The position numbers were made by a program, and so were the translations under genes. Under the pieces are notes generated by a model. That model was not told where the DNA came from and did no database searches. It worked only from the letters and a program-made list of their open reading frames with translations. From the NCBI GenBank assembly GCA_902791945.1, contig CADAXR010000012.1, forward strand, positions 1 through 34,755: 34,755 nt of DNA, in the 5' to 3' direction. The stretch is from an uncultured Bacteroidia bacterium (GTDB taxonomy: Bacteria; Bacteroidota; Bacteroidia; Bacteroidales; UBA932). Positions 2,301 through 28,736 of this stretch are shown here, one piece after another. Every line of letters begins with the position of its first letter. Positions within the stretch are counted from its first letter, which is position 1.

Positions 2301-2303
2301 GGT

Positions 2304-2927: not shown

Positions 2928-2951
2928 CTGCCCCAGAACCTTAACGCCCAT

Positions 2952-5232: not shown

Positions 5233-7671
5233 ATGACTAACCGCATATTCGCCATACTGCTTTTCGTCCTTTTCCCGCTCAAGGCCCTTGCAGGGCTTGG
5301 AGACGGTATGCGTTTTATGTCATACGAGGTTCCGGCGGAGCAGCGGACATCGCTGGTGCTCCCCGCCGGGAACCACGAATGGATCACTTTTTCCGACTCC
5401 CTGACTGTCTCATTCTCCCTCAAGATAGAGAGGGATATGGGCTCGTTCGGCTATATATGCCGCGTAGCGCTGGACGACCTTCTCCCCATAGACCTCATCA
5501 TGTCGCCCGAGGACGACAATCCCTCTATTTCCGCGACGGCGGATCACCACAACATCGTCCCAATCTACGACGAGGGTGAGGACATCCACGAGTGGAAGGA
5601 CCTCTATCTCCGTTTTTACGAAGACGGCGGGAAGTTGTCGATAGTGGCCAATTCGCGGGAGGTCTTCCGCACGGCATACAAGGCGAAACGGCACAGGGTG
5701 CGCTTTTTCTTCGGCAAGGTGGACGCCGCGGGCTATGCGACTTCGGACGTCGCACCGATGGTACTGGCGGACCTTCAGGTCAGGGCCGACTCAAGGAGGA
5801 GCATCGCCTGGATGCTCAACGACAGCAGTGACCTCACGACGAGGCATGGCTTGAGCATTAGGGCGGTCAACCCCGTCTTTATGCGCGAGCGCAACAAGCA
5901 CTGGGTGAAAATCGCCACCGTGGAGCAGCCGTCCAATGCCTACGCCTGCTTCTCTGAAAGGTGCGACAAGGTCTGGTTCGTCTCGGAAGGGCAGGTCGCC
6001 ACGGTGGATGTCCCGTCAGCGAAGACTACCGTGCGGAAGTTCGGCGCAAAGATGAAAATTCCCCTTTCCTGCAGCCAGTTCGTCGTCCTTCCTTCAGGGG
6101 AGCTCGCACTTGCGGACTCCGAGCGCGGGCAGCTGGTGCGATATGACGCAGCCTCCGGCGAGTGGGAGGAGGACAACGGCCGCACTAGGACATTTACCTA
6201 CCTCCACGGCAACACCTTGTATCTTAAGGACAGCGGGAAATTCATCGAAATTTTCGGCTACGGGCAGCACCGCTACTCCAACGCGGTCCGTGTCTGGAGC
6301 CCGGAGGATATAGGCGCAGTCTGTACATCCACCCTCGAGGGCGTCGAGCCGAGGTATCTCGCAGGGGCCGGGATCAGCGACGGCAAGATCTACGTCCTCG
6401 GCGGCAAGGGCAACGAGTCCGGCCGTCAGGAGCTTGGCGTACGTCTTTTCGACAGCCTCGTCGAGACGGATCCCGTAACCCTTTCCTCCCGTACTCTCTG
6501 GGAGAATGAAATTCTCGGGGAGAAAGTGCCGGCGAAGGACCTTGTCTTTACGGAAGAGGGGATTTATACTCTTCTCTATAATCCCGAAATCCACGACTCC
6601 TCTCTCCAGCTATGGCGTTTCAATCCGGAGGACGGCAGTGCCGAGCCTCTCGCCGACGCCATACCGTATCCGTTCAATGATGTTTCTTCCGAAGCAAGGC
6701 TCGGATTCGACAGGGAAAGGGAGACACTTGTCGCAACTGTGTCCTTCGCAGGCGACGACGGAGTCTCCAGGGCCGAGGTCTGGACAGTCGCTTTCCCTGT
6801 CCTCGCTGCTCCGGAGACTTCCGAAGCGAGTGTACGCGGGCAGTTTATATGGGCTCTTGTGGCCGGTATGATAGCGGCCGCCATCCTGCTGGCCCTGGCA
6901 TTTCTAAGGCTTCGCCGCGCGGCCTCCCGTCCGGACGAGACTGACTTCCAGCCCCGTCAGGAAGTCCCTAAGAAGCCCGGTGTCTATCTCATTGGCGGAT
7001 TCCACGTGATTGACAGGGACTCTAACGACATAGCATCGCAATTCTCCCCGATCCTCGTCCAGCTGCTGTCCATTCTCGTCATCTACACTGTCCACAAGGG
7101 AGGCGTTTCAAACGCCAAACTCAAGTCGCTCCTCTGGGACGACAAGTCCGACAGCAGTTTCAACAACAACAAGGGCGTCAACATCAGCCGCCTGCGTGTC
7201 CTCCTTTCGCAGGTGGGTGAAATTACAATAGCGCAGGACGGCGGATTATGGCGCATCGAGGACGGCGCAGGGCTCTGCGACTACATAGTCGCCATTCATC
7301 GCATCGAAGGCGAGGACGCCTCCCTTGCGCTCCGGACCGCCTCATGGGGCCCTCTTCTTCCTGAATACCACTACGAGTGGCTCGATTCCGCCAAAGCGCG
7401 CTACACGGACCTTGTCCTCTCCCGCCTCGACTCCATGGCGGATGACGCGGCAGCGAATCCGGAGCTCGCTGTGAGGGTAGCCGACTGCCGCCTGCTCTTC
7501 GACACGCTTGACGAGGATGCCGTCCGCAGCAAGTGCCAGGCCCTCGTGACCCTCGGAAGGGTGGGCACGGCAAAGGCCGTCTTCGAACGTTTTACAAGTG
7601 AATACAAGAACATTATGGGCGAGGAATTTTCGAAAGATTTCACTTCTTTCCTGAAAAATTCCGAGCATTAA
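5233..7671 (+). CDS. One-component transmembrane transcriptional regulator, SARP-like winged-helix output
   Basis: An 812-residue protein. In order: signal peptide (1-20, ending ALAG); a lectin/LamG-like beta region (about 25-200); a beta-propeller or Kelch-like region (about 215-525, e.g. 'GKIYVLGGKGNESGRQ'); one membrane helix (about 539-559) with an arginine-rich cytoplasmic edge; a winged-helix domain (about 580-690, 'YLIGGFHVIDRDSNDI', 'KLKSLLWDDKSDSSFNNN', 'VNISRLRVLL'); and a helical C-terminus like the bacterial transcriptional activator domain (700-812). The DNA-binding part resembles the SARP/OmpR class found in Bacteroidota membrane regulators. It should sense a ligand outside the inner membrane and act on DNA directly, with no kinase step. 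Position just before cotH-susCD suggests it controls that operon (inference). The ATG at 5233 is fixed by the signal peptide. Confidence 0.85.
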   Translation: MTNRIFAILLFVLFPLKALAGLGDGMRFMSYEVPAEQRTSLVLPAGNHEWITFSDSLTVSFSLKIERDMGSFGYICRVALDDLLPIDLIMSPEDDNPSISATADHHNIVPIYDEGEDIHEWKDLYLRFYEDGGKLSIVANSREVFRTAYKAKRHRVRFFFGKVDAAGYATSDVAPMVLADLQVRADSRRSIAWMLNDSSDLTTRHGLSIRAVNPVFMRERNKHWVKIATVEQPSNAYACFSERCDKVWFVSEGQVATVDVPSAKTTVRKFGAKMKIPLSCSQFVVLPSGELALADSERGQLVRYDAASGEWEEDNGRTRTFTYLHGNTLYLKDSGKFIEIFGYGQHRYSNAVRVWSPEDIGAVCTSTLEGVEPRYLAGAGISDGKIYVLGGKGNESGRQELGVRLFDSLVETDPVTLSSRTLWENEILGEKVPAKDLVFTEEGIYTLLYNPEIHDSSLQLWRFNPEDGSAEPLADAIPYPFNDVSSEARLGFDRERETLVATVSFAGDDGVSRAEVWTVAFPVLAAPETSEASVRGQFIWALVAGMIAAAILLALAFLRLRRAASRPDETDFQPRQEVPKKPGVYLIGGFHVIDRDSNDIASQFSPILVQLLSILVIYTVHKGGVSNAKLKSLLWDDKSDSSFNNNKGVNISRLRVLLSQVGEITIAQDGGLWRIEDGAGLCDYIVAIHRIEGEDASLALRTASWGPLLPEYHYEWLDSAKARYTDLVLSRLDSMADDAAANPELAVRVADCRLLFDTLDEDAVRSKCQALVTLGRVGTAKAVFERFTSEYKNIMGEEFSKDFTSFLKNSEH

Positions 7672-7678
7672 TTCTTTC

Positions 7679-7714
7679 GTTAATCCCTTTGTTAACAGCC
7701 GCGGTTTAGCTTTG
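7679..7714 (+). promoter_or_regulatory. Promoter of the cotH-susCD operon with GTTAA direct repeats
   Basis: TAGCTTTG (7707-7714) is a perfect TAnnTTTG -7 box; TTTG at 7688-7691 lies 15 bp upstream. GTTAA occurs twice in direct orientation, at 7679-7683 and 7691-7695 (12-bp period, in the contexts CTTTCGTTAA and CTTTGTTAA). The pair ends about 11 bp before the -7 box. This placement resembles the direct heptamer repeats bound by SARP activators. Expected start is near 7721, giving a leader of about 13 nt. Confidence 0.55.
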
Positions 7715-7733: not shown

Positions 7734-9050
7734 ATGAACACAACGCGCGCGCACAAGATTTTCTCAGCCCTTATTGTCGTCTCGGCTGTTTTGTTCTCCT
7801 GTCACAAGGCCCCTCAGGCCGTTCAGGAAGAGCCTGAAGAGCCTGTAGACCCTGTCGAGCAGCCCGGGAAAGAAGAGCAGGGCGCCGGCGGAGAATCTTT
7901 CGGCTGGATTGGCACAGGTCTCCCCACTGTTGTCATAGATACCCCCGATGCGGCTCCGATCACTTCCAAGGAAGTGTGGATGGAGGGCGCCACAGTGACC
8001 GTCTACAATCCCGACGGCAGCGTTGATTACAGCGGCGGCCTCAGCGTAAAAGGCCGCGGCAACAGCACCTGGACCCAGTTCCCCAAGAAGCCGTATGCGA
8101 TGAAGCTCGACTCCAAGGGCAAGATCCTCGGGATGCCGAAGCACAAGAGGTGGTGCCTCCTCGCCAACTGGATGGACCGCACTCTCATACGCAACGACGT
8201 CGCGTTCGAGGTCTCCCGCCGCACCGGACTGGCCTGGACCCCATCCGGCCGTTTTGTCGAGCTCGTCCTCAACGGGGAGCACATCGGCAACTACTACCTC
8301 TGCGAGCAGATCAAGGTGGATGCGGCCAGGGTCAACATCGCGAAACTTGACGAGGACGCCACCGAGGGCGAAGCCATAACGGGCGGCTACCTGATGGAAT
8401 GCGACGCCTGGTTCGACGAAGCCTTTAAATTCCGTTCCACCATCCACGACGTCCCCATCCAGTTTAAGGATCCGGACGAGGTCAACGAGGCCCAGTTCGC
8501 CTACATGAAAGACTATGTCAACGCCTTCGAGGAGGCGCTCTACGATGAAACGTCCTTCGCTGCCGGCGACTGGAAGGAGTACATAGACATGGGATCCTGG
8601 GTGGACTGGTGGCTGGTCAACGAGCTCTGCCAGAACTCCGAGGTCAACCAGCCCAAGAGCGCCTATTTCCACAAGGACATCGGCGGCAGGCTGGTTGCTG
8701 GTCCTGTGTGGGACTTCGACTGGGGCACTTTCATGCCGAAGGACAGGTACAACTACGTCGCGATTGGTCCCAAGTATTACGTAGGCCAGCTTTTCAAGGA
8801 CCTTTCCTTCCGCCGTCTCGCCAAGGCGCACTGGGCGGAATACAGGGAGGGCCTTTCCAAAATACCGGAATACATAGACGAGGTGGCCGCGACGCTTGTG
8901 GCCTCCGACGCGATTAACATAGCGATGTGGCCTATTTCCAGGACGACCAACGGCGATGTCGACCTGAGCTATCCGGAAGCCGTAGCCAGGCTGAAGAAGG
9001 CATACACCGAGAAATTCGAATGGCTTGATACAAATATCCAAACATATTAA
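7734..9050 (+). CDS. CotH-family kinase lipoprotein
   Basis: A 438-residue surface or periplasmic lipoprotein (lipobox ending at Cys23, then a Glu/Pro-rich linker to about residue 50). CotH motifs are clear: 'RGNSTW' (108-113), 'LANWMDRTLIRN' (143-154), 'CEQIKV' (190-195) and the metal-binding active-site block 'GPVWDFDWG' (323-331), with Asp327 and Asp329 as the expected metal ligands. Bacillus CotH is an atypical secreted protein kinase that phosphorylates spore-coat proteins. Bacteroidota homologues next to SusC/D have no established substrate. It is the first gene of the long operon and ends 4 nt before susC, so a surface protein or the glycan itself may be the target (inference). Length and motif set suggest an intact enzyme. 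Confidence 0.9.
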   Translation: MNTTRAHKIFSALIVVSAVLFSCHKAPQAVQEEPEEPVDPVEQPGKEEQGAGGESFGWIGTGLPTVVIDTPDAAPITSKEVWMEGATVTVYNPDGSVDYSGGLSVKGRGNSTWTQFPKKPYAMKLDSKGKILGMPKHKRWCLLANWMDRTLIRNDVAFEVSRRTGLAWTPSGRFVELVLNGEHIGNYYLCEQIKVDAARVNIAKLDEDATEGEAITGGYLMECDAWFDEAFKFRSTIHDVPIQFKDPDEVNEAQFAYMKDYVNAFEEALYDETSFAAGDWKEYIDMGSWVDWWLVNELCQNSEVNQPKSAYFHKDIGGRLVAGPVWDFDWGTFMPKDRYNYVAIGPKYYVGQLFKDLSFRRLAKAHWAEYREGLSKIPEYIDEVAATLVASDAINIAMWPISRTTNGDVDLSYPEAVARLKKAYTEKFEWLDTNIQTY

Positions 9051-9054
9051 CCTT

Positions 9055-12000
9055 ATGACCACCAGATCCAGGGTTCTGTCCGTTCTTCTCATCGCGGCGC
9101 TCACGGCGTCGGCGGGAATCGCGGACAGTTTTGCCCAGACCAAGAAAACAGACAACCGGGTTGTCCGTACCATAACCGGTACGGTCAACGCCGGCGAGCC
9201 GTTCCCGGGGCCGCTCCCCGGCACAGCCGTCATCAACGCCAAGACCAAGCAGGGCGTCGTTACGGACGAGAACGGTAACTACTCGATCGGTATCACCGGT
9301 CCGGAGGACATCATCCAGTTCCGCCTTCTCGGCTACAAGGACGCCGACAGGATAGCGGGCGTCGGCGACAGGCTCGACGTAACTCTGGAAGATGCTTCCG
9401 ACGTCCTGGACGAGACCGTCATCATCGGCTACGGCACGACGAAAAAGAGGGACATCACCGGTTCCATCGTCTCAGTGACCAAGGAAGACATCGAAAACAA
9501 GATGCCGACCAACGTCTTCGACGTCCTCCAGGGCTCGGCCGCCGGCGTGCAGGTCACGTCCGGTTCCGGACAGCCCGGTGAAGGCTCCTCCGTCATCATC
9601 CGCGGTACTTCCACGATGAACGACGCCGGCGTCGGCCCCCTCTGGGTGGTGGACGGAGTCCCCACGACGGACATCGACCAGATCAACCCCTACGACATCG
9701 AGTCTATCGAGGTCCTGAAGGACGCCGCCTCGGCCGCCATCTACGGAGCGCGCTCCGCCAACGGAGTCATCCTCGTGACCACGAAAAGGGGCAATGAGAG
9801 CAATCCTGTCCTCGAGATCCGTTACCAGCACTCTTTCGCGACCCTCACCCACAAGCTTCCGCAGATCAATGCCAACCAGTACCGTAACATGCAGAAGGGC
9901 TACCTCGAGTATGCTGAAGGAGAGGGCAGCGGACTTGTGTCGCAGGCCGTGGTCAATATCCTCAATTCACAGCTCGGCGACCCCTACAACGCCCTCCTCA
10001 ACAATGACAATGACTACCAGAAGCTGGCCTACCGCCTGGCCCATAAGGACCAGGTGGACCTCAGTTTCGGCGGCGCTTCCCGACAGCTCAAGTATATGCT
10101 GATGGGCGGCTTCTACAACGAGCAGGGTATCATCAAGAAGACCAATTTCCGCAGGGCTTCCCTCCGTCTCAATGCGGACTATACCGCCAACAAGGTCCTC
10201 TCCCTCGGCACCAAGATCAATGTCAGCTACGCCAAGAAGGACGGTGTCGAAGAGGCTGGCTACCTCAACAGCATCCTCTCCCGCAAGCCGACCCTCGCGA
10301 CCCATTATCCTGACGGCACCCTCATCGGTACGCTCTGGGGGATGAGTCCTCTCGCGGCAAGCCTCCAGACCAACTTCAACGAGTACTTCAGGGCTTCGCT
10401 GTTCCAGTACCTCGACCTCAAGTTTACCGACTACCTCAAGTGGACGACCAACCTCAACGCCAATTTCGGCCTCGTCCGCTATACCTATATGCGTCCTACG
10501 GCCCTCAGCGACCAGTACCTCCACAATAACGGAGAGCACCGCACCACGCTGACCTTCGACCTGATGAACGAGAACTACCTCAACTTCAATTACACGGTGG
10601 GCGACGCGCACAACATCTCCGCAATGGCCGGATTCTCCATCCAGAGCTGGAGGACTGCACTTGACTACTACAAGGGCAAGGATTCCGCGACCGACGCCGT
10701 CTGGACGATGAACGCCTTCGCGGCCAACTTCGACCTCACTGCTACCGGCTCCACCGAGACAAGGCACAGGATGCTCTCCGGCTTCGCGCGCTTTACCTAT
10801 AATTATAAATCGCGCTACATCGTCTCAGCCAATGTCCGTGCCGACGGATCCTCCCGCTTCGCTTCCGACAGGAAAGTCGGTTTCTTCCCGTCAGTCTCCG
10901 CAGCATGGCGTTTCTCCGACGAGCGTTTCCTGCGCGGCGCGATGAAGGCTATAAAACTCACCGACGGAAAACTCCGCTTCAGCTACGGTCTCACAGGAAA
11001 CGAGGCTATCGGCGATTTCGACTCCCAGCTCAGCTATGCTGTGGGCGGCATCTACGATGGCGTCGCCGGAGTGACGGCTTCAAGAATCGCCGTCAATGAC
11101 CTCGGCTGGGAGCGCACGCGCCAGCTCAACGCCGGTCTCGACCTGAGCTTCCTCCAGGGACGCTTCCAGATCACGGTCGATTTCTTCGACAAGTACACTG
11201 ACAACCTCCTCGCCAACTACGAGATCCCCAAGGAGTGGGGTTTCAATACCGTCCGCAAGAACATCGGCGCCATAGACAACAGAGGAGTCGAACTCGCTTT
11301 CAAGGGCACTATCGTCAACAAGAAGAACTGGTACCTCCATCTGGATGCCAACCTCACCTACAGCCGCAACAAGGTCGTGGAGCTTGCCAACCACACAGCC
11401 TATATCCACTCCGACAACTGGTATATCTCCGAAGGCCGCCCTCTCGGTGACTTCTACGGCTACAGGAATCTCGGAGTCTTCGCCTATGACGAGTCAAACG
11501 CCTTCACTCCCGACTGGCAGCAGCTGACTCCCGTCTTCGACGGAGGAGTCTTCTCGGGATACACCCTCAACGGGCAGGCTTACAGCGGAGAGGTCCGCCA
11601 GAAGACTCTCCCGAGCGGTGTACCGTTCCGCGGCGGCGACATCAACTGGGACGAAAATCCGGACCACAGGGACGGCATCATCAATGACCAGGACCGTATG
11701 ATCCTCGGCAACGCCCAGCCTTTCCTCACCGGCGGTCTTTCGCTCACCTTCCGCTACAAACAGTTCACTCTCACGGCAGCCTCCTACTTCTCCTTCGGCG
11801 GCAAGATCTACAACTTTGCCCGCTACAATCAGGACCGCAACTCGATGTCCGCGTGGAGCACTACACCTACCGTTGGCTGGGTGGACAACTTCTGGGTCCG
11901 CCAGGGCGACGAGGTCGATTACCCTCGTCCCTTCGCTGACAGCTTCCAGAACGACCGCAGCGTCAATTCCAGGTACATCGAGAACGGTTCCTACTTCAAG

Positions 12001-12225
12001 ATCCGCAATGTGCGCCTCACATACCGCCTGAAGCAGACGGTAGTTCAGAAGATGAAGCTCCGCGGACTCGCTTTCTACGTGTACGTCACGAATCCTCTCA
12101 CCTTCACGGCCTACAGCGGCTACGATCCGGAGTTCTCCAACTACAGCGCCCTTTCCATAGGAATGGACACGAACCGGTTCCCCCGCAACCGCGAAGCAGG
12201 TCTCGGTTTCACGCTTAATCTGTAG
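9055..12225 (+). CDS. SusC/RagA family TonB-linked outer-membrane transporter
   Basis: A 1056-residue TonB-dependent transporter. It has a signal peptide (1 to about 28), a carboxypeptidase-regulatory-like domain (about 36-115, 'KQGVVTDENGNYSIGI'), the SusC box 'DETVIIGYGTTKKRDITG' near 119-136, a plug ('DVLQGSAAGVQVTSGSGQPG', 'SIEVLKDAASAAIYGARSANGVILVTTKRG') and a 22-strand barrel ending 'AGLGFTLNL'. SusC forms the barrel of the SusCD 'pedal-bin' importer for oligosaccharides. No STN signalling domain is present, so it probably does not signal through an anti-sigma factor. I use ATG 9055 rather than the upstream TTG at 9025, since 9055 starts directly with the signal peptide and lies 4 nt after the cotH stop. 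susD follows 5 nt downstream. Confidence 0.97.
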   Translation: MTTRSRVLSVLLIAALTASAGIADSFAQTKKTDNRVVRTITGTVNAGEPFPGPLPGTAVINAKTKQGVVTDENGNYSIGITGPEDIIQFRLLGYKDADRIAGVGDRLDVTLEDASDVLDETVIIGYGTTKKRDITGSIVSVTKEDIENKMPTNVFDVLQGSAAGVQVTSGSGQPGEGSSVIIRGTSTMNDAGVGPLWVVDGVPTTDIDQINPYDIESIEVLKDAASAAIYGARSANGVILVTTKRGNESNPVLEIRYQHSFATLTHKLPQINANQYRNMQKGYLEYAEGEGSGLVSQAVVNILNSQLGDPYNALLNNDNDYQKLAYRLAHKDQVDLSFGGASRQLKYMLMGGFYNEQGIIKKTNFRRASLRLNADYTANKVLSLGTKINVSYAKKDGVEEAGYLNSILSRKPTLATHYPDGTLIGTLWGMSPLAASLQTNFNEYFRASLFQYLDLKFTDYLKWTTNLNANFGLVRYTYMRPTALSDQYLHNNGEHRTTLTFDLMNENYLNFNYTVGDAHNISAMAGFSIQSWRTALDYYKGKDSATDAVWTMNAFAANFDLTATGSTETRHRMLSGFARFTYNYKSRYIVSANVRADGSSRFASDRKVGFFPSVSAAWRFSDERFLRGAMKAIKLTDGKLRFSYGLTGNEAIGDFDSQLSYAVGGIYDGVAGVTASRIAVNDLGWERTRQLNAGLDLSFLQGRFQITVDFFDKYTDNLLANYEIPKEWGFNTVRKNIGAIDNRGVELAFKGTIVNKKNWYLHLDANLTYSRNKVVELANHTAYIHSDNWYISEGRPLGDFYGYRNLGVFAYDESNAFTPDWQQLTPVFDGGVFSGYTLNGQAYSGEVRQKTLPSGVPFRGGDINWDENPDHRDGIINDQDRMILGNAQPFLTGGLSLTFRYKQFTLTAASYFSFGGKIYNFARYNQDRNSMSAWSTTPTVGWVDNFWVRQGDEVDYPRPFADSFQNDRSVNSRYIENGSYFKIRNVRLTYRLKQTVVQKMKLRGLAFYVYVTNPLTFTAYSGYDPEFSNYSALSIGMDTNRFPRNREAGLGFTLNL

Positions 12226-12230
12226 GAAAA

Positions 12231-13730
12231 ATGAAAAGAATCCTCAATATTACACTTGCCGGCCTCCTTGGCATTGCAACGGCCGGCTGCAGCTACCTTG
12301 ACGTGGATCCGATAAGCGAGGTCCCCGCAAGCGAGATGTGGAAGAACCAGAGGGATGTCAATGCCGGCATCGCCGAGATATATGCTTCCTTCCGCACTGC
12401 CCTGCGCAGCAACTGGTTCTCCTGGGGAGAAATGCGTTCGGACAACTTCGTCCTCTACCAGGAACTTCCTTCCGAGTATTCGAAACTCCTTCTGAATCAG
12501 ATGACGACGGACCTTCCGTCCACCAACTGGACTTCCCTCTACAAGGTCATCAGCAACACCAATTTCGCCATCCAGAACATTCCTGATGCCGACATCACCG
12601 ACCAGGCCCTCAAGAACGACTATCTCGCTCAGGCCTATGCGATGCGTGCTCTGTGCTACTTCTACGCCGTCAGGGTCTGGGGAGCGGTGCCGGTGTACCT
12701 TGAGCCTGTGGACAACCTCAAGAAAGCCGAGGTCAAGGGGCGTACCCCGATGGACGAAGTCCTCAGGGATGTTATTATTCCCGACCTTGAAATGGCAGAG
12801 TCCCTCATCAATCCAGCCAACGTGGAGCGCAAGCGCATAAGCCGCAACGCAATCTACGCCATCCTTGCCGACGCCCAGATGTGGCTCGGCGAGTGGGACG
12901 CAGCTGACGCGACCATCGACCGCTTCATGGCGGCAAACGGCAGCCCCAGTGCAGCGATCACCAATTCGAAGGTTGTTTTCCAGAAGGACATTGTCGCTCT
13001 TAAAAACACCTTCGTCGAGGCCCTCAACAATAAGGACGGCGACAATAATCCGACTGTCGACGAGTATGGCGACCCCAACGAGTTCATCTTCGTTATCCAC
13101 CAGAACATCGGCGAGGCCGGCCTCAACAACTACTCCCTTATCTGGAGCATCCTCGGATGCGGGATGGGCCAGGGTTCGACCGTGGTCCTTTCCCCGAAAC
13201 TCCAGCAAATCTACGAGGACGCCGCGGCGAGGGCTCCTGTCGACAAGCGCTTCGAGCAGTATCTCTGCCCCTCAAAGAGCAGTGCCGAGAGCTACCAGGT
13301 CCATAAGTATATGGCCAACGGAACCAGGGTCAACTATCAGGACTACATCAACTGCCAGGTGGCCTATCCAATCTACCGCTACACCGATGTCCTCCTCATG
13401 CAGGCCGAGGTGAAGGCCAATCTCGACAAATGGCAGGATGCCCTCAATACTGTTCAGTTCGTGCTTGAACGTGCAGGTGTCTCGTCCAGGCTACCTTCCG
13501 TGAGCAATTTCAGCTCGCGCGACGAACTTATCGACTATATCCTCGACCAGAAGCAGATCGAACAGGTCGGTGAGGGCAAGCGCTGGTTCGACCTCGTGCG
13601 CAACCATCGCGCCGTCGAGGTGATGAACCCCATTAACGGGCTTTCGGACCAGAGGGAGGAACTCTTCCCCATCCACCAGTCCGTCATTAATCTCTGCCAG
13701 GGCGCCTACGAGCAGAATCCCGGTTATTAA
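12231..13730 (+). CDS. SusD/RagB family glycan-binding lipoprotein
   Basis: A 499-residue outer-membrane lipoprotein (lipobox 'ATAGC', Cys20, followed by SYLDVDPISEVPASEMWKN, the classic SusD start). The helical TPR-like body includes 'AYAMRALCYFYAVRVWGAVPVYLEP'. The C-terminal block 'YRYTDVLLMQAEVKANL' and 'GEGKRWFDLVRNHRAVEVM' is typical of the family. It acts as the surface lid of the SusC transporter and helps capture the glycan. It lies 5 nt after susC and is the obligate partner gene. Nothing looks broken. The ligand cannot be read from the sequence. Confidence 0.97.
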   Translation: MKRILNITLAGLLGIATAGCSYLDVDPISEVPASEMWKNQRDVNAGIAEIYASFRTALRSNWFSWGEMRSDNFVLYQELPSEYSKLLLNQMTTDLPSTNWTSLYKVISNTNFAIQNIPDADITDQALKNDYLAQAYAMRALCYFYAVRVWGAVPVYLEPVDNLKKAEVKGRTPMDEVLRDVIIPDLEMAESLINPANVERKRISRNAIYAILADAQMWLGEWDAADATIDRFMAANGSPSAAITNSKVVFQKDIVALKNTFVEALNNKDGDNNPTVDEYGDPNEFIFVIHQNIGEAGLNNYSLIWSILGCGMGQGSTVVLSPKLQQIYEDAAARAPVDKRFEQYLCPSKSSAESYQVHKYMANGTRVNYQDYINCQVAYPIYRYTDVLLMQAEVKANLDKWQDALNTVQFVLERAGVSSRLPSVSNFSSRDELIDYILDQKQIEQVGEGKRWFDLVRNHRAVEVMNPINGLSDQREELFPIHQSVINLCQGAYEQNPGY

Positions 13731-13743
13731 TTGAGACAGCCTT

Positions 13744-14385
13744 ATGAAAAAGATACACATAGCAGCAATTGCAGCCATTTCTCTGGCCCTTTCCGCTTGC
13801 AACGGCTTTACGGTCCAGAAGGACTACAAGTACAAGAGCCAGCCGCTTGACCCCCACGTCGGAGTGAACGCCTGGGAATTCATGCAGACCCGGAGCGACC
13901 TCTCCGAGATGGTCAAGGCGGTCGAATACACCGGCCTTCAGGACCTCTACACCCAGGAAGACAGGACTCTTACATATCTGTTCCTCAACAACACGGCCTT
14001 CGCCAACTTCAAAAACGTACATGCCCAGGTGGAGAACATTACAGCCATAGACGTTGAGCAGGTGAAAAGGCTTCTGCAGTATCACATCGTCATCGGCGAG
14101 TATCATTCCCTCAACCAGAAACTTCCGGTACAGCCTATCTATGTGAAGACGCTTCTGGACGGGGAGTGGGGACTTATGACCCTGAAGGTCAATAAATCCT
14201 CTTCCAACTCCATAGGTTACCCCATCTCCAACGGCAACATTGTCGCCAACGAGAAGGGAAGTATTTTCAACAGCCGCCAGGCGAGCAGCATTGCTTCGAA
14301 CATTATGCCGACCAACGGCTTCATCCACATAATGAACGACTACGCGATGTTCCGCAAGACCGCCACTGACGAATCACCCTTTTAA
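13744..14385 (+). CDS. Fasciclin (FAS1) domain lipoprotein
   Basis: A 213-residue lipoprotein (lipobox ending at Cys19, LSAC). One FAS1-like domain spans about 45-205, with the two usual conserved blocks: H1 'YLFLNNTAFANF' and H2 'LLQYHIVIGEYHSL', then a C-terminal 'NGFIHIMNDYAMF' strand that matches the 'NGviHviD' pattern. FAS1 domains mediate adhesion or carbohydrate/protein contact on cell surfaces. FAS1 lipoproteins occur next to susCD in several Bacteroidota loci with unknown roles. The gene lies 13 nt after susD and 12 nt before the next lipoprotein gene. It probably acts as an accessory surface binding protein of this SusCD complex (inference). Confidence 0.85.
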   Translation: MKKIHIAAIAAISLALSACNGFTVQKDYKYKSQPLDPHVGVNAWEFMQTRSDLSEMVKAVEYTGLQDLYTQEDRTLTYLFLNNTAFANFKNVHAQVENITAIDVEQVKRLLQYHIVIGEYHSLNQKLPVQPIYVKTLLDGEWGLMTLKVNKSSSNSIGYPISNGNIVANEKGSIFNSRQASSIASNIMPTNGFIHIMNDYAMFRKTATDESPF

Positions 14386-14397
14386 CAGGATACAGGT

Positions 14398-16068
14398 ATG
14401 AAAAAGATATTTTTTGCATTCTGCGCCGCTGTCCTTTCTCTTGCCGCATGCTCGGAAAAGGAAGGAAACTATTCCGGAATGGCCGCGCCTGTCATCGAAT
14501 TGATGTACGAGAGCATAAATCCGGATCTCAACAGGGTGGACAACACTCCGGTCGTATGCGTAGTGTTCTCCGAAGCCGGCCTTCGCAGCGTCTCCCTTTA
14601 TAAGATGGAATCAGAGGAGGAAACGCTGCTGAGTGAGGTCACGGAGTTCCATGATATTCACCAGTATTCGATGAAGGAAACCCCTTCGTGGAACGAGAAC
14701 ATCACTTCTCTCAGGATAGTAGCCGTCGACAAGGCTTCCCGTGAAGCCTTCGTGGAAATCCCCGTCACCATCACGCCTTTCCTCCCGGCTCCGACCATCA
14801 TTTTCGAGCTGGAGAAAATCCATATCGACGAACGTAATGAGGACCCTAACGAGATCGTTACCAATTTTGACGTGACTTCACCGGCGGCCCTCTCAAGCGT
14901 CAGCGTGTCCATGTTCACTTCCGACGGTATAGTGGACGTCCCGCTCGAGCCATCCTTTCATGCCGGAGAATCCTCCTACGCTTTCTCCAAGACTCTCACG
15001 TATTTCGAAGGCTACCGCGGACTTCAGGTCTCCGCGACAGACGTCAACGGAAAGATAAAAATTGAAACGCTTCCCGTCGAGTATATTCCGGCGCCGGCGC
15101 CGGTCATGACGCCGACAGGCGAAACCGTTGTCGAGCCTGTCTTTGTCAAGGCTTCGGATTCACGCAGTTTCACATTCCATGTCGAAGCGGAGACAGGTCT
15201 TGCAAATATCGAGGTTGCAAAACTCACGAAAGACATCCAGGGGGCCGATGTGAGGAATCGTCTTGCCATCGAGTACTATGATGCTTCTTCGGATTTCTCC
15301 GTGGATTACAGTTTCACAGCTGAATCCTTCGACGAAGGAAGCCATGCCCTCGAGTTTATCGCGACGGATCGTCTCGGCCATGCGGCTACGGTGCATATCC
15401 CGACTCTTGTCAATCTTCGCTACGGCGCAGACATCGTGATTGCCGCCCAGCGCAACACAAAGGATCCGCTTATCCTTGAAGGATACCCGGGAGAGCACTA
15501 CTGTTTCTTCTCCGTCCGTGATTTCAAGACCTACTCCCTGTTTGATTTCTGGGATACCACCCAGAGGCGAAACATCGATTTCTTCTATTTTGCCTGGAAC
15601 AACGGCGGCGCTTCCGACAACGGTACACGCCTTATGAAGGCAAATGAGGACCGTGCAGGTCAGGATCCCGTCTGGTTTACCTACGTAAACGAGCAAGGTA
15701 CTACCGAGATACCCGTCCTCAGCGCTTCGAACTCCGAATGGGGAGGTCGCAACGGTACATATATCAAGAAATTGACCAGTGCTTACTCGTTCAACTTCGA
15801 CAATGTGACCGTCTCCGACCTTCTGGATCCTTCCGTCCAGTCTTACGTCGTACAGGGCAAAACGAACCCCGACTGGATTAATTACAAAGCAGGAGATTGT
15901 TTCCTCTTCAAGACAGGACCGGCTTCCACTTGTCCCAATTGCACCGGCATAGTACGCTTTGAGATGATCGAAGGCAGCAGGGACTCCTTCACAGGGCAGA
16001 ATGCCGTCCCGAACGACAAGCCATGCTACATCATTGTTTCCATAAAGGCACAAGTCATCGGGCAATGA
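14398..16068 (+). CDS. Multi-domain Ig-like surface lipoprotein (SusE/F-position)
   Basis: A 556-residue lipoprotein (lipobox ending at Cys18, LAAC) that I cannot assign to a named family. About three immunoglobulin-like repeats are suggested at roughly 30-118, 120-225 and 228-340; each starts near a 'P.i.l' strand and ends with a sentence like 'LRIVAVDKASREAFVEIPV', 'LQVSATDVNGKIKIETLPV' or 'LEFIATDRLGHAATVHIP'. A different C-terminal domain follows (345-556), rich in aromatics, with an odd 'TCPNC' cysteine pair near residue 523. Position after susD and the fasciclin gene suggests a surface glycan-binding protein analogous to SusE/SusF. Its stop overlaps the next start by 4 nt (ATGA). Confidence 0.8.
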   Translation: MKKIFFAFCAAVLSLAACSEKEGNYSGMAAPVIELMYESINPDLNRVDNTPVVCVVFSEAGLRSVSLYKMESEEETLLSEVTEFHDIHQYSMKETPSWNENITSLRIVAVDKASREAFVEIPVTITPFLPAPTIIFELEKIHIDERNEDPNEIVTNFDVTSPAALSSVSVSMFTSDGIVDVPLEPSFHAGESSYAFSKTLTYFEGYRGLQVSATDVNGKIKIETLPVEYIPAPAPVMTPTGETVVEPVFVKASDSRSFTFHVEAETGLANIEVAKLTKDIQGADVRNRLAIEYYDASSDFSVDYSFTAESFDEGSHALEFIATDRLGHAATVHIPTLVNLRYGADIVIAAQRNTKDPLILEGYPGEHYCFFSVRDFKTYSLFDFWDTTQRRNIDFFYFAWNNGGASDNGTRLMKANEDRAGQDPVWFTYVNEQGTTEIPVLSASNSEWGGRNGTYIKKLTSAYSFNFDNVTVSDLLDPSVQSYVVQGKTNPDWINYKAGDCFLFKTGPASTCPNCTGIVRFEMIEGSRDSFTGQNAVPNDKPCYIIVSIKAQVIGQ

Positions 16069-18053
16069 AAAAGTGGTTCACAATTCTCGCGTCAGTGCTG
16101 ACCCTCTCCGCTTTTGCGCAGGGGGGCAGCTACGACGTCGTGGTCTATAGCGGCACCGCCTCGGGTGCGATAGCGGCTTATACGGCTGCGAAGGAAGGGC
16201 TCAGCGTGGCCCTTCTGGAGCGCACCGGCCACATCGGCGGTCTCACCACCAGCGGTATCGGCAACGTCGATATCGGCTGGGCGACGACTGTCGGCGGCTA
16301 CACCGCGGAGTTCCTCCGCAAGGTCGGTGCCCACTACGGGACGCCCCACCGCATGCAGATTTCCCTCGAGTGCAAAATCGCCGAGAATATCCTCGACGAG
16401 ATGCTCTCCGGGGCCGGCGTCAATGTGTTTCTCCACACCAGGCTGCAGGAAAAAGGCGGCGTTAAGGTTGAGGACGGCAGGATCGTCTCCATTACGATGG
16501 AGAACGGAGACGTCTTCTCCGCGCCCGTTTTTATCGACTGCTCCTACGAGGGGGACCTGATGGCGCAGGCCGGGGTGAGCTACCTCACCGGCCGCGAGGG
16601 CCGCGAGACCTTCGGGGAGTCATCCGCCGGAGTCTCCGAGTACAAGGTTTTCCGCACCTACACTCCTGAAGAACTTCTCGAAGTCAGGAAAGTCGCGGCG
16701 AAATACCCCCTCGACATAATCTTCGAGGAAAAGGCGAAGGAAGGCTCGGCCGACTCCAAGTCGCAGGCCTATGTCTACAGGCTCATCGTGACGGACAACC
16801 CCGACAATCAGGTGCCGTTCTATGAGCCCGAGGGCTATGATCCGGACAGGTATTTCAATGTCCTTTACAGGATCAAGCGCCGCGGTGCCACCCGTTTCGG
16901 ACAGATGGTGACCCTCTACAAGCTGCCCAACCAGAAGTATGACCTCAACCACATGGACCTTATCAACGCCTCCTGGAACTATCCGGAGGGCACCTACGCG
17001 CAGCGTGAGGCCATCGACCTCTACCACCGCCGTTATCAGGAAGGCCTCCTGTGGTTCCTGGGCCACGACCCGAGGGTGCCGGAAGCCCTGCGCAAGGATA
17101 CGCAGCGCTACGGCCTCGCCGCGGACGAGTTCACCGACAACGGCAACTGGCCCTGGCAGCTCTACATCAGGGAGGGCCGCCGTATGAGGGGTGAATATAT
17201 AATGGTCCAGCAGGACGCCTGGGAGAATCCCACCAAGGAAGACGCGGTGGCCATCGGGTCCTATTTCCTCGACTGCCACATAGTGTCTTCCGTCGTCAAC
17301 AAGAGGGGAATACACCTTGAGGAGGGCAACTTCGATTACACGCCTTACCGGCCGTATGAAATCCCCTACCGCGCCATTACGCCCAGGAAATCGGAGTGCA
17401 CCAACCTCCTTGTCCCTGTCTGCATGAGTGCCTCGCATGTCATCTGCGCTTCGCTCCGCATGGAGCCCGTCTATATGATGCTCGGTCAGGCGGCGGCGGA
17501 TGCCGCGGCGCTTGCCGTCAGCGGCGGAGTGGCGGTCCAGGATGTGGACGTCAAGACCCTGCAGAAGAAACTCAGGGAGCAGAAGCAGATCATCCATTTC
17601 AAGACTCCGCTCGGCATGTACCTGAAGAAGGATCAATTCGAGGGCGTGGTGATGGACGATGCGGACCTGGGTCTCGGAGAGGCTGTCTGGCAGCACTCCA
17701 CCAGCCAGGGACCGTTCATGAACTACGACTACCGCTTCCAGCCGGCGAGGCCGCAGGGCGGTGCCGAGGCCGTCTTCAAGCCTGAGCTTCCCGGCAAGGG
17801 GAAATATGAGGTGCAGATAATGTACTCGCCTTCCGGCAACCGCACGAAGAACGCCGATGTCACCGTCTTCGACAAGAAGGGTGCGCACCACTGCCCGGTC
17901 GACATGACGGTCAGTCCGCGCGCGGACGGTGGCTACTGGCATAGTCTTGGCACATTCACCCACGATCCCAAGAAACCTCTTAAGGTGGTCATTACCAACA
18001 AGGGAGAAAGCGGAATCGTGGTGATGGACGCCGTAAGATTCGTGAAGAAATGA
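16065..18053 (+). CDS. Secreted FAD-dependent oxidoreductase with golvesin-like C-terminal domain
   Basis: A 662-residue protein with a Sec signal peptide (1-18, AFA). The Rossmann FAD-binding segment is at 23-53 ('YDVVVYSGTASGAIAAYTAA', then 'LLERTGHIGGL'), characteristic of the PF12831-type FAD oxidoreductases. Later motifs include 'FIDCSYEGDLMAQAG' and 'FTDNGNWPWQLYIREGRRM'. From about 527 to the end a separate beta-sandwich starts 'VVMDDADLG', resembling the golvesin/xanthan-lyase C-terminal domain, a putative carbohydrate-binding module. I use ATG 16065; an in-frame ATG at 16023 lies inside the previous gene and lacks a signal peptide. The start overlaps the previous stop and its own stop overlaps the next start, each by 4 nt. 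The natural substrate is unknown; a sugar hydroxyl is a guess. Confidence 0.87.
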   Translation: MKKWFTILASVLTLSAFAQGGSYDVVVYSGTASGAIAAYTAAKEGLSVALLERTGHIGGLTTSGIGNVDIGWATTVGGYTAEFLRKVGAHYGTPHRMQISLECKIAENILDEMLSGAGVNVFLHTRLQEKGGVKVEDGRIVSITMENGDVFSAPVFIDCSYEGDLMAQAGVSYLTGREGRETFGESSAGVSEYKVFRTYTPEELLEVRKVAAKYPLDIIFEEKAKEGSADSKSQAYVYRLIVTDNPDNQVPFYEPEGYDPDRYFNVLYRIKRRGATRFGQMVTLYKLPNQKYDLNHMDLINASWNYPEGTYAQREAIDLYHRRYQEGLLWFLGHDPRVPEALRKDTQRYGLAADEFTDNGNWPWQLYIREGRRMRGEYIMVQQDAWENPTKEDAVAIGSYFLDCHIVSSVVNKRGIHLEEGNFDYTPYRPYEIPYRAITPRKSECTNLLVPVCMSASHVICASLRMEPVYMMLGQAAADAAALAVSGGVAVQDVDVKTLQKKLREQKQIIHFKTPLGMYLKKDQFEGVVMDDADLGLGEAVWQHSTSQGPFMNYDYRFQPARPQGGAEAVFKPELPGKGKYEVQIMYSPSGNRTKNADVTVFDKKGAHHCPVDMTVSPRADGGYWHSLGTFTHDPKKPLKVVITNKGESGIVVMDAVRFVKK

Positions 18054-19426
18054 AAAGGATCGCTGCTCTCATACTGATGCTTTCCGTCCTTTTGCCCGTC
18101 CGGGCAAAATGCAAATCCTCCTTTGACGTGCGTGTCGGGGGAAAGAAGGTCACGGTGTACGACCTCAGGGTCTCCCCGGCGGACAGTCTTCTCCGAATGA
18201 AAGGGATGGACGACAAGAAGGGATCGAAGGACATCTTCGAGAAGGCGGCGTTCTGCTCGGCGGATATCGACGCTCCGGCCCTTGTTAAGGTGAAAGTCGC
18301 CTCCGAGGTCAGAAGCGCGAAGGTCCTTCCGTCCTCCCGCGGAATCACTCCGCAGGTCAGCGGAAAGGAAATCAGCTTCGAGGCCGCTCCCGGCGACAGG
18401 CTCACCCTCGAGGTCAACGGCGACGAGATTCATTCACTCCATATATTCACGAACGCGCGCGAGGAAGACGTGCCCTCTCCGACTGATCCGAATGTCCTTT
18501 ACTACGGCCCTGGCGAGCACTATGTCTCAAGGATAATAGTGCGCTCGGGGCAGACTCTCTACCTCGCCCCCGGAGCCGTGCTCTACGGGGAGATGTTCCA
18601 GAGGGAGAAAGGAGGGGCGTATTCACCGGTAGTGTCGCTTATCGGCGACAATATCAGGGTCTGCGGCCGTGGCATCATCGACGGCTCGCTCTGCGAGACG
18701 CTGACGACGAATCTTCTCTATATCAACGGAAAGAACATCACAGTCGAAGGAATTATCCTTCGTGACGCCTCCGTCTGGACCGTGCCTGTGAAGAATTCCG
18801 AGAACGTGGTGCTCGACGGAGTCAAGATCCTCGGCTACAGGGCCAATTCCGACGGAATTGACATATGCAACAGCCGCGGAGTCACTGTGAAGAACTGCTT
18901 CGTGAGGACACTCGACGACCTCGTGGTCGTCAAGACGACCCGCGCAGGCGGCACCGCGGAGAATATCCGCGTGACTGGGAATGTCCTGTGGAACGAAGTC
19001 GCCCACGCCCTCAGCGTCGGCGCGGAGATCAATCACGACATCTCCGACGTCGTGTTCGAAGACAACGACATCATCCATGACAAGGGCCGCGAGTGGAGCC
19101 TCAGGGTGTACCACTGTGACAACGCGAAGGTCTCCGGCGTCGTGTTCAGGAATATCAGGATAGAGGAAAGCAAAAACCTGATATCCCTATGGATCAACAA
19201 GGCGGTCTGGTCCTCTTCGGAGGAGAGAGGCCGTATCGACGGAGTCCTCTTCGAGAACATCCGGGCGGAAAGGGTCTCGAACCCTGCAGTCCAGGTACTC
19301 GGCTACGACGGGGAACACCTTGTCGAGAACGTCACTTTCGACGGCGTTACCGTCGATGGGAAGGGCATAAGCCCGAATAATCTGAAGACCAACGGATTTA
19401 CCAAAAACATAATTATAAAGCAATGA
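18050..19426 (+). CDS. GH28-like right-handed beta-helix protein
   Basis: A 458-residue secreted protein (signal peptide 1 to about 19). An N-terminal beta domain (about 25-145) precedes a parallel beta-helix (about 160-455) with repeated 'V.I.g..I.v' rungs such as 'VSLIGDNIRVCGRGIIDGS' and 'NITVEGIILRDAS'. GH28 landmarks are recognisable but altered: 'NSDGID' (266-271, Asp268), 'LDD' (Asp289/Asp290), 'AHALSVGAE' (318-326, His319) where polygalacturonases have GHG, and 'RVYH' where they have RIK. The three acidic positions of GH28 are therefore present, but the canonical substrate-carboxylate-binding RIK is not. It is probably a glycosidase of a GH28-like or related clade rather than a true polygalacturonase. 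It is coupled on both sides by 4-nt overlaps. Confidence 0.82.
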   Translation: MKRIAALILMLSVLLPVRAKCKSSFDVRVGGKKVTVYDLRVSPADSLLRMKGMDDKKGSKDIFEKAAFCSADIDAPALVKVKVASEVRSAKVLPSSRGITPQVSGKEISFEAAPGDRLTLEVNGDEIHSLHIFTNAREEDVPSPTDPNVLYYGPGEHYVSRIIVRSGQTLYLAPGAVLYGEMFQREKGGAYSPVVSLIGDNIRVCGRGIIDGSLCETLTTNLLYINGKNITVEGIILRDASVWTVPVKNSENVVLDGVKILGYRANSDGIDICNSRGVTVKNCFVRTLDDLVVVKTTRAGGTAENIRVTGNVLWNEVAHALSVGAEINHDISDVVFEDNDIIHDKGREWSLRVYHCDNAKVSGVVFRNIRIEESKNLISLWINKAVWSSSEERGRIDGVLFENIRAERVSNPAVQVLGYDGEHLVENVTFDGVTVDGKGISPNNLKTNGFTKNIIIKQ

Positions 19427-20013
19427 AAACAAGAATCCTTGCGGCGGCCGTCCTGGCCTGCCTTTCCGTTCCTGCTTTCGCTCAGGAATTCGAAGAAACT
19501 ATGGGAACGCTCCCCGTCATGATGAGCGCTTCCGACCTCAACGAGGAGAACGGCTTCCGCTACAGCGGCAAGTTCACCTATGAAGGCGACGCCGAAATCC
19601 AGTACACCGGCGCCACCCCCAAGAACGCCTCCTACAAGACCCAGTTCGGCAACGAGGCCTCCCGCAGCTGCAATGTCCGCATCTCCGACAAGCACAACTG
19701 CTACTTCCAGATCAACGGCATCAACACGATGGATATCAAGAAGCCCGTCGTCGGCTTCGCTCTCCTCAAGGGTGTCCGCCGCTTCGACGGCACCGACCTC
19801 GTGGTCGAATGGTCCGAGGACGGTCTCCGCTGGACCGAGCTCGATTTCGAACCTCTTCCCACTGACGAGGGTTCCGAGCTTACCTTCATGTACCGCCGCA
19901 CTTCTCCCCTTCCCAACAAGGAGAATCTTTCCCTGCGCTTCCGCCAGAACGGCTACGGCTGCGTCTTCAGAATCGATGACGTGAGCGTCGGCCCCAAAAA
20001 GCCTAAGAAGTAA
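19423..20013 (+). CDS. Small secreted jelly-roll domain protein
   Basis: A 196-residue secreted protein (signal peptide 1 to about 20, AFAQ). I do not recognise a named family. The pattern 'EFEETMGTLP ... YEGDAEIQYTG ... YFQINGINTMDIKKPVVGFALLKG ... LVVEWSEDGLRWTELDF ... FRIDDVSV' resembles the beta-sandwich found at the end of many Bacteroidota extracellular nucleases and peptidases (choice-of-anchor-like domains). Here it is a free-standing protein. The tail is lysine-rich (GPKKPKK). It overlaps the GH28-like gene by 4 nt and the GH97 gene by 1 nt (TAATG). A carbohydrate-binding or complex-assembly role is inference. Confidence 0.75.
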   Translation: MKTRILAAAVLACLSVPAFAQEFEETMGTLPVMMSASDLNEENGFRYSGKFTYEGDAEIQYTGATPKNASYKTQFGNEASRSCNVRISDKHNCYFQINGINTMDIKKPVVGFALLKGVRRFDGTDLVVEWSEDGLRWTELDFEPLPTDEGSELTFMYRRTSPLPNKENLSLRFRQNGYGCVFRIDDVSVGPKKPKK

Positions 20014-22016: not shown

Positions 22017-22993
22017 GAAAAGTATTGCTGGGCATCGCGCTGCTCATTATGACGGCCGGCCCGATGTGTTCACAGGAAAGGATTATCAACCGTTACGGCC
22101 TCGGCCTGATGATGGTGAAGGGCGGACAGTTCCGCCTTATGGACCAGGACGCCATAGCGGCCAAGGGCCTTTTCGACCTCGAGAAGGTGCCCGCGGATAT
22201 GTATGAGATCTACAACCGCAGCCGTGTCTTCCTCAAGGACACTGACTTCCACGAGTGCGAGACCATAGAGGTGGTCTATAAGAAATACCCCGGCTACGAG
22301 CTGAAGCTCGCCCTCGACCTTCCCCGTAACAGGGAAGGGAAGGCCCTCCCCTTCATGGTGTGGATCCACGGAGGCGGATGGCACACGGGCAATTTCGGCG
22401 GCCACAGCCTCCACTCGCGTTTCCTCGCGGGCAATGGCATCGCCGGAGTGCGCATCTCCTACTCCCTGCTGACCCAGGGGGCGGTTTTCGCCGACACCTG
22501 GCAGGATATCCAGGATGCCCTCGCTTATGTGCAGGAGCATGCCGCCGAGTATAACCTCGACCCGAACCGCTTCGGCTTTGCAGGCCACTCTGCCGGCGGA
22601 CACCTCGCTTCTTATGCGGCGATGCGCATCCCCGGGACACGCCTTCTCGTGAGCCTCAACGGCATCTACGACCTCGTCCACACTGTGCCCGGATATGTCC
22701 CTTCCAGCCGCCACGACACTTACTTCGGGCTTGACAGCGAATACTCAAGGGCCCAGTGCTCTCCGGTCACTTTCGTCCACCCCGGCGCACCCTACTGTCT
22801 CCTGACATTCACGGGCGGCGACACACTCGTGGACAAGGACCAGGTGAAGACCTTCACCCGCGCCCTCCGCGAGGCCGGCGTGAAGTACGACCTTATCTAC
22901 AAGGATTACTATTCCCACAACGGCTTCAACGACACCGACCTTTTCGAGCCGATGGCGATGAAGATACTCATTACGGCACAGAAGTACCTCTAG
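22013..22993 (+). CDS. Secreted alpha/beta-hydrolase esterase (BD-FAE/acetyl-esterase-like)
   Basis: A 326-residue protein with an N-terminal signal peptide (about 1-20, cleavage near CSQ). The alpha/beta-hydrolase fold shows the oxyanion block 'HGGGW' (119-123), the nucleophile elbow 'GHSAGGH' with Ser193, and a late 'SHNGFND' histidine. An acidic residue near 'FTGGDTLVDKDQ' would complete the triad. The segment between 22 and about 85 is unlike simple esterases and may contact substrate. The closest functional class is the bifunctional deacetylase/feruloyl-esterase group found in PULs. It probably removes acetyl or aryl esters from the glycan before the glycosidases act. The start overlaps the GH97 stop (ATGA), and the next gene begins 1 nt after its stop. 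Confidence 0.87.
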   Translation: MRKVLLGIALLIMTAGPMCSQERIINRYGLGLMMVKGGQFRLMDQDAIAAKGLFDLEKVPADMYEIYNRSRVFLKDTDFHECETIEVVYKKYPGYELKLALDLPRNREGKALPFMVWIHGGGWHTGNFGGHSLHSRFLAGNGIAGVRISYSLLTQGAVFADTWQDIQDALAYVQEHAAEYNLDPNRFGFAGHSAGGHLASYAAMRIPGTRLLVSLNGIYDLVHTVPGYVPSSRHDTYFGLDSEYSRAQCSPVTFVHPGAPYCLLTFTGGDTLVDKDQVKTFTRALREAGVKYDLIYKDYYSHNGFNDTDLFEPMAMKILITAQKYL

Positions 22994-22994
22994 G

Positions 22995-26962: not shown

Positions 26963-26974
26963 ATCATTAACCTT

Positions 26975-27115
26975 ATGCGTTACAACAAAAAAACAAAAGA
27001 GGAGTACAGCACTCCCGAGGTGCGCATCCGTGACATCCGCATGGAACACGGACTCTGCGTAAGTCCAACCACCCAGAACGAGGACTTCGAGGAAGACCCT
27101 GAATACACATGGTAA
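26975..27115 (+). CDS. 46-residue small protein upstream of fimbrillin-like lipoprotein
   Basis: A short ORF with a basic N-terminus (MRYNKKTKEE), a central 'YSTPEVRIRDIRMEHGLCVS' and an acidic tail ending 'EDPEYTW'. There is no signal peptide. The 'PEVRI.DI.ME.GLC' pattern recurs in tiny Bacteroidota proteins encoded just before fimbrillin-like or BspA-like surface proteins, to my recollection; their role is unknown. It is supported as a real gene by a start context (ATTAACCTTATG) identical to that of susC, good spacing (12 nt after GH92, 16 nt before the next ATG) and non-random composition. One cysteine lies at residue 28. Confidence 0.7.
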   Translation: MRYNKKTKEEYSTPEVRIRDIRMEHGLCVSPTTQNEDFEEDPEYTW

Positions 27116-27117
27116 AA

Positions 27118-27124
27118 AAGGAGG
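27118..27124 (+). promoter_or_regulatory. Strong Shine-Dalgarno sequence
   Basis: AAGGAGG lies 7 nt before the ATG at 27132. Such a full match to the anti-SD is unusual in Bacteroidota, and I saw no comparable one before the other genes of this operon. It confirms the start of the fimbrillin-like gene. Confidence 0.75.
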
Positions 27125-27131
27125 AAAAGTC

Positions 27132-28733: not shown

Positions 28734-28736
28734 AAA

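Follow-up and report, generated by a model that had tools for sequence, protein, structure and literature searches.

The 34,755-nucleotide contig CADAXR010000012.1 of an uncultured Bacteroidia bacterium (assembly GCA_902791945.1; the whole stretch is hereafter the window) carries a run of co-directional genes of a polysaccharide utilization locus (PUL), with CotH as the first gene, and immediately upstream a gene for a predicted one-component membrane protein, hereafter the regulator. An initial annotation, made from the letters of this DNA, had pointed to two direct GTTAA repeats between the two. By inspection of the sequence we identified three TTAA units with a period of 12 bp, arranged as TTAA-N8-TTAA-N8-TTAA-N11-TAGCTTTG and spanning positions 7668-7714; the CotH ATG (7734) lies 19 nt downstream of the TAGCTTTG box. 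This three-unit array is likely the operator of the upstream membrane regulator, which would directly activate the PUL operon. Its elements are:

7668..7671, + strand: array unit 1, TTAA, sharing three bases with the regulator stop codon TAA (7669-7671); kept in loci L081-L084
7680..7683, + strand: array unit 2, TTAA within the first GTTAA of the initial annotation; kept in loci L081-L084
7692..7695, + strand: array unit 3, TTAA within the second GTTAA of the initial annotation; 69 of 123 promoters adjacent to regulators have a unit at this place, 11 nt ahead of the box
7696..7706, + strand: 11-nt spacer, constant in length and variable in sequence in the cross-locus comparison
7707..7714, + strand: TAGCTTTG, a match to the sigma-ABfr -7 consensus TAnnTTTG (excerpt of PMC7366714)

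The two GTTAA words (7679-7683 and 7691-7695) and their 12-bp period are present as first described, and the gap of about 11 bp to a perfect TAnnTTTG proved to be exactly 11 nt. The repeat is therefore real, but it has three units rather than two, the upstream TTAA at 7668-7671 having been overlooked; the core common to related sites is TTAA rather than GTTAA, and the period of 12 bp holds in the window while relatives have 11 or 12. GTTAA-N7-GTTAA occurs once in the window (mean of 0.03 in shuffled sequences, 3 of 100 reaching one copy), and the pair by itself is weak proof, since in the 2.57-Mb genome it is no commoner than its reversed control (2 copies vs 4). TAnnTTTG boxes are ordinary as well, with 9 in the window and 5.8 expected. 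For the full array pattern the window holds no second site that matches the 18 fixed positions with 3 mismatches or fewer, in agreement with the statement that the repeat is absent before the other promoters of the window, and in the window flanks the observed array score was reached by none of 200 shuffles.

The regulator is predicted to combine a sensor, a membrane helix and a DNA-binding part in a single chain:

5233..7671, + strand: regulator gene, 812 aa, predicted one-component membrane protein (open reading frame (ORF), sequence and AlphaFold2 model)
5305..5802, + strand: predicted concanavalin/laminin-G-like domain, about residues 25-190 (AlphaFold2 model, Foldseek)
5860..6807, + strand: predicted kelch-type beta-propeller, about residues 210-525 (AlphaFold2 model, Foldseek; Pfam Kelch below its cut-offs only)
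6823..6927, + strand: predicted transmembrane helix, residues 531-565 (model and sequence, with inferred topology)
6979..7263, + strand: predicted OmpR/PhoB-type winged helix, residues 583-677 (model, structure and profile comparison)
7279..7656, + strand: predicted BTAD-like helical domain, residues 683-808 (model, structure comparison)

The winged helix was modeled with a predicted local distance difference test score (pLDDT) of 96.7, and a PhoB-family chain was matched by profile (E 0.0013). For the model of the C-terminal domain, AfsR and EmbR were the sole strong matches in the PDB; the C-terminal part of the regulator is predicted to adopt the fold of the Streptomyces antibiotic regulatory proteins (SARPs), a winged helix with a BTAD. 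At the level of the fold, these matches uphold the SARP-like winged helix of the initial annotation, and behind it lies the BTAD-like domain, likewise SARP-like at fold level, which had gone unmentioned. Pfam and NCBIfam leave the C-terminal domain unnamed, Trans_reg_C appearing at E 0.2 in one homologue only.

Two variants of this architecture were observed. In L067 (9738-12267, + strand) and L069 (8089-10706, - strand) two adjacent ORFs, one for the sensor and one for the SARP part, replace the single regulator gene, with the break close to the membrane segment and, in L069, one base of overlap; this is either a natural two-protein form or an assembly frameshift. In L187, L188 and L190-L193 the similarity to the regulator family is limited to about 280 C-terminal residues and the sensor is a different one, with Laminin_G_3 at about residues 393-556 in the three proteins scanned (L188, L190 and L193); L191 is the sole locus of this group with a significant array.

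Inspection of the flanks of regulator homologues revealed TTAA repeats before the neighboring genes, SusC-type operons included. We defined a strict pattern of three TTAA with a period of 11 or 12, followed after 11 nt by TNNNTTTG (TTAAN{7,8}TTAAN{7,8}TTAAN11TNNNTTTG). Across 200 genus genomes it matched 22 times, in 17 of them, and its reversed control once. By protein search, 29 of the 200 encode the regulator. Nine matches fall within the spacer next to a regulator homologue, four on the same contig about 5-28 kb off and two on another contig of a regulator-bearing genome; one is in genome G142, and the remaining six resemble Pho boxes. The 16 matches that are not Pho-like occur in 13 genomes, 12 of which carry the regulator, compared with the 29 of 200 overall (hypergeometric p 1e-10), so that 15 of these 16 fall in regulator-bearing genomes.

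Association was then scored in three sets of loci. The array score counts mismatches over 18 positions (three TTAA, period 11 or 12, 11 nt, TAnnTTTG), and at gene level a site with up to 2 mismatches had to lie in the 300 bp upstream of the gene; genes for which the locus supplied less than 250 bp of upstream DNA were left unscored. The genus loci form the discovery set, because the pattern was first noticed there, and the near-identical loci L094-L096 are kept in its counts. The held-out set, L155-L193, comprises two loci from a further genus genome and 37 from other families of the order; the third, phylum-wide set was built from the best 80 of 134 confirmed loci, of which 9 copies and 4 without a recognized regulator ORF were dropped, leaving 67. 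In the discovery set the array precedes 23 of 36 regulator-adjacent genes vs 5 of 246 other genes in these loci (Fisher 5e-20), and three of those five share the regulator's fetched stretch at 5 to 14 kb (L067, L086, L089). The enrichment was replicated in the held-out set (20/39 adjacent vs 2/78 other genes; 6e-10) and in the third set (33/49 vs 8/152; 2e-18), where the adjacent arrays come from 33 of the 67 loci. Tested against 200 dinucleotide shuffles, the spacers beside the regulator contain an array at p ≤ 0.035 in 27 of the 36 loci of the genus and in 22 of the 39 of the held-out set. These sequence comparisons support the view that the array accompanies the regulator family across the phylum, though some loci lack it.

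The distance between unit and box is nearly constant. We counted exact TTAA at each distance before TAnnTTTG (at most 1 mismatch) in the 123 adjacent promoters, and the 69 with TTAA at 11 nt compare with 4 at 10 nt and 15 at 12 nt; the peak is present in every set (21/35 discovery, 15/39 held-out, 33/49 third). Further peaks stand at 22 nt (22 promoters) and 23 nt (45). Given a unit at 11 nt, the next exact TTAA lies 11 bp upstream in 11 promoters and 12 bp upstream in 35, and more TTAA follow at 22-24 and 33-35 upstream, the latter indicating that some arrays contain a fourth unit. A small 11-nt peak also appears in 466 other promoters (29 vs 7 at 10 and 12 nt), perhaps because these loci contain additional targets. 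A fixed distance of 11 nt is what a protein bound in fixed phase with RNA polymerase predicts.

Of the sigma-ABfr promoter features, the window has the -7 box TAnnTTTG and lacks a -33 TTTG or TTG at a gap of 19-21. The same holds for the arrays in general: a -33 TTG at this gap was found in 0 of 40 arrays, the window's included, vs 27 of 143 control promoters (p 9e-4), and TTTG in 0 of 40 vs 14 of 143 (p 0.04), although the TTAA units occupy part of this region and lower the expected TTG somewhat. The 40 arrays come from those of 68 loci that had p ≤ 0.035 and no more than 2 mismatches, near-identical loci (L061, L063, L064, L092, L095, L096) having been dropped. On a tree of the C-terminal domains of this same selection, the spacing class of the array changed 10 times, vs 17.1 when shuffled, and without the window's clade 9 times vs 13.0, with 0 of 1000 shuffles as low in either case. 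The second spacing by itself (65/1000) and, once the window's clade is removed, the first by itself (276/1000) were not significant on the tree. Because site and gene are co-inherited, the agreement with the tree is weak support.

Conservation at orthologous loci was the check that the initial annotation had proposed, and all four loci with the order regulator-CotH-SusC (the window, L081, L082 and L083) keep the array, with three units each, spacings of 12/12/11 and zero mismatches, at 51-55% identity between the regulators of L081-L083 and that of the window. L084, with a regulator 40% identical, has a 12/12 array with 1 mismatch. The spacer from unit 3 to the box is constant in length in orthologous loci and has no evident common sequence.

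Arrays of the 12/12 type were also found away from the regulator in relatives of the window's clade, upstream of relatives of the window's operon genes. In G012, on a contig other than that of its regulator, an array with 1 mismatch (L101) stands before an FAD oxidoreductase 69% identical to its counterpart here; in G142 the array (L072) is followed by a relative of the window's 196-aa protein (71%) and then by a glycoside hydrolase family 92 (GH92) gene (74%). L080, an unlinked site with 1 mismatch in the window's own genome, and L071 in G047 precede leucine-rich repeat (LRR)/DUF285 proteins 43-48% identical to the protein encoded at 27132-28733. Beside the regulator itself, relatives of GH97, esterase and GH92 at 70-72% are present in L084 (G012), where CotH and SusC are missing, and L156 (G567) has a SusC 69% identical. 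The array thus precedes relatives of the window's genes in differing arrangements, which suggests that it travels with these genes. A looser 12/12 search of seven genomes (at most 3 mismatches) gave many AT-rich and control matches, and only sites with 0-1 mismatch were followed; among these, L106 and L108 showed no clear target gene.

Since the array recurs at near-constant spacing beside related membrane regulators, it is likely a docking site for them. Several observations weigh against this assignment. A significant array is missing beside the regulator in 9 of the 36 loci of the genus and in 17 of the 39 of the held-out set, and in 34 of the 67 loci of the third set none lies within 2 mismatches before an adjacent gene. 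G142 has a perfect 12/12 array (L072, 6173-6219, + strand) and no regulator was detected there, the gene being lost, missing from the assembly or replaced. Pfam BTAD has no match in the window's own genome, genus Pho boxes are built of similar units, and the association fits activation and repression alike.

If the array were a Pho box, the winged-helix response regulator PhoB would bind its TTAAC repeats and the PUL would be under phosphate control; another winged-helix protein probably does read similar words in the genus, because the six Pho-like sites among the 22 strict matches (TTAACC / TTTAAT / CTTAAC at 11/11, one of them in the window's own genome) lie before a PHO4 phosphate transporter in four cases and beside a PhoR-like kinase in five. 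These sites, L073 (1566-1610, - strand) and L075-L079, are likely Pho boxes of the genus, and the 5.7 kb of L078 contain neither PHO4 nor a PhoR-like kinase. We nevertheless consider a Pho box at the window's array unlikely: all six Pho-like sites are 11/11 whereas the window's clade is 12/12 in five of five loci, 15 of the 16 remaining matches fall in regulator genomes with the array here adjoining the regulator, and the Pfam scan of 18 window proteins revealed no phosphate gene.

The same regulator could instead bind as a repressor that the glycan releases. A protein on the units, which overlap the -33 region, could also block RNA polymerase, but array promoters have no -33 TTG (0/40 vs 27/143), which fits a need for help, the unit-to-box distance is constant, and the predicted fold matches the activators AfsR and EmbR; repression seems improbable here. 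That another DNA-binding protein reads the array and merely accompanies these PULs is very unlikely, even though association differs from binding and in G142 an array stands before orthologues of window genes with no regulator detected, since the regulator is the one gene that loci with quite dissimilar PULs have in common, and its predicted fold belongs to a type that recognizes repeats like these. Chance TTAA words in an AT-rich spacer would fit the lack of genome-wide enrichment of the two-unit GTTAA and are hardly credible given the 0 of 200 flank shuffles matching the score, the spacers significant at p ≤ 0.035 (27/36 and 22/39 loci) and the replicated enrichment over other genes of the same loci.

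An operator for the regulator remains the preferred reading, and several known systems come close to it. SARPs such as AfsR of Streptomyces coelicolor, and their fold relative EmbR of Mycobacterium tuberculosis, have a winged helix followed by BTAD-like helices, as predicted here, and act at direct repeats about one helical turn apart closely upstream of the downstream promoter box. Operators with two or three repeats are known (excerpts of PMC10936776, PMC5930380 and PMC10972967), among them that of PimR with three heptamers and 4-nt spacers (excerpt of PMC5930380). SARP target repeats lie 11 or 22 bp apart, compared with 12 in the window's clade and 11 or 12 in its relatives. The definition given in an excerpt of PMC10936776 places the 3′ repeat 8 bp from the -10 element; the gap of 11 nt counted from TTAA becomes 8 if a 7-bp unit begins at TTAA, the unit edges being assumed. 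Unlike SARPs, the regulator is joined to a membrane helix and a lectin-plus-propeller sensor, belongs to Bacteroidota PULs instead of actinobacterial antibiotic genes, goes with a TTAA core and gives no sequence match to Pfam BTAD.

Control of PULs in Bacteroidota has been described through hybrid two-component systems (HTCS), SusR and extracytoplasmic function (ECF) sigma factors. Like the HTCS of Bacteroides, the regulator is a large membrane sensor encoded beside the susCD operon that it would control; HTCS carry kinase and AraC-type domains (excerpt of PMC3878776), and in the regulator Pfam found no histidine kinase, receiver or AraC-type domain, only sub-threshold kelch motifs. SusR is likewise a one-component membrane regulator, of the sus operon, with a direct-repeat operator, but its repeats are six or seven helical turns apart (excerpt of PMC3878776) and the array units here about one turn. 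The Pho box resembles the array in its TTAAC-like direct repeats read by a winged helix at a similar distance from the box; it differs in its 11/11 period beside PHO4/PhoR-like genes, the 12/12 array of the window going with a membrane regulator. ToxR and TcpP are membrane-tethered winged-helix regulators too, but lack a BTAD. Their DNA-binding domain is N-terminal, while that of the regulator is C-terminal.

The operator interpretation of the initial annotation is thus supported, and we infer, from sequence and models, that the regulator binds the array, activates the operon and senses its ligand without a kinase. A glycan would bind the lectin-like domain and the propeller in the periplasm, and the signal would cross through the single transmembrane helix. 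SARP protomers would then align side by side on the TTAA units and hold RNA polymerase at a promoter with a -7 box and without a -33 element, as AfsR does in Streptomyces, and the differing periods (11 or 12 bp) could help to separate regulators and promoters. On a broader scale, these loci probably represent an unnamed, phylum-wide class of PUL switch beside HTCS, SusR and ECF sigma/anti-sigma pairs, in which periplasmic glycan reading is coupled to a membrane SARP on a TTAA array of three to four units replacing the -33 element. If so, a membrane-anchored SARP would add another one-component path linking glycan to RNA polymerase, and SARP-type activation would extend from actinobacterial antibiotic genes to glycan use. 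As the operator is legible from sequence, target operons could be predicted for each genome. A full-text literature search, whose coverage left out most subscription papers and all preprints, found no paper on SARP-type PUL regulators, and in the main text of PMC3747994 on B. cellulosilyticus WH2 the words 'SARP' and 'kelch' do not occur.

Downstream of the array the window contains:

7734..9050, + strand: CotH, first gene of the operon (Pfam PF08757)
9055..12225, + strand: SusC-like TonB-dependent receptor (Pfam Plug and CarboxypepD)
12231..13730, + strand: SusD-like protein (Pfam PF07980 and PF14322)
13744..30881, + strand: remaining co-directional run, with fasciclin, two FAD oxidoreductases, GH28, GH97, esterase, two GH92, LRR/DUF285 and two proteins without Pfam match (Pfam)

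Judging by gene spacing, the co-directional genes would form one operon, and GH28, GH92 and GH97 lead us to guess at a complex glycan as the substrate. The two proteins without a Pfam match (14398-16068, 556 aa, and 19423-20013, 196 aa, both + strand) have relatives in other genomes, at 65-73% and 71% identity, respectively. In L080 (7074-7120, - strand) and L071 (6189-6235, - strand) the unlinked 12/12 array is followed by an ORF of 44 to 55 codons and then by LRR/DUF285 lipoprotein-like genes, and the short reading frames of the two loci are alike.

The regulator was found in 29 of 393 genomes of the order and 18 of 206 genera. For its C-terminal domain the figures are 31 of 395 phylum genomes and 25 of 171 genera, the window's own genome being included in both counts; among the phylum matches, the weaker ones (E 1e-11 to 1e-22) may represent different proteins that carry a domain of this kind. 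The named carriers comprise, among others, Bacteroides cellulosilyticus, B. oleiciplenus, Coprobacter secundus, Draconibacterium orientale, Lutibacter, Fulvivirga and Sphingobacterium, and its presence in the cultured B. cellulosilyticus and B. oleiciplenus makes the regulator experimentally accessible. In B. cellulosilyticus DSM 14838 (L231) the regulator gene occupies 2150-4735 and the array 1964-2009. In B. oleiciplenus (L228) and B. cellulosilyticus (L231), the region upstream of the divergent operon contains, by eye, apparently more than three TTAA units, some of them degenerate.
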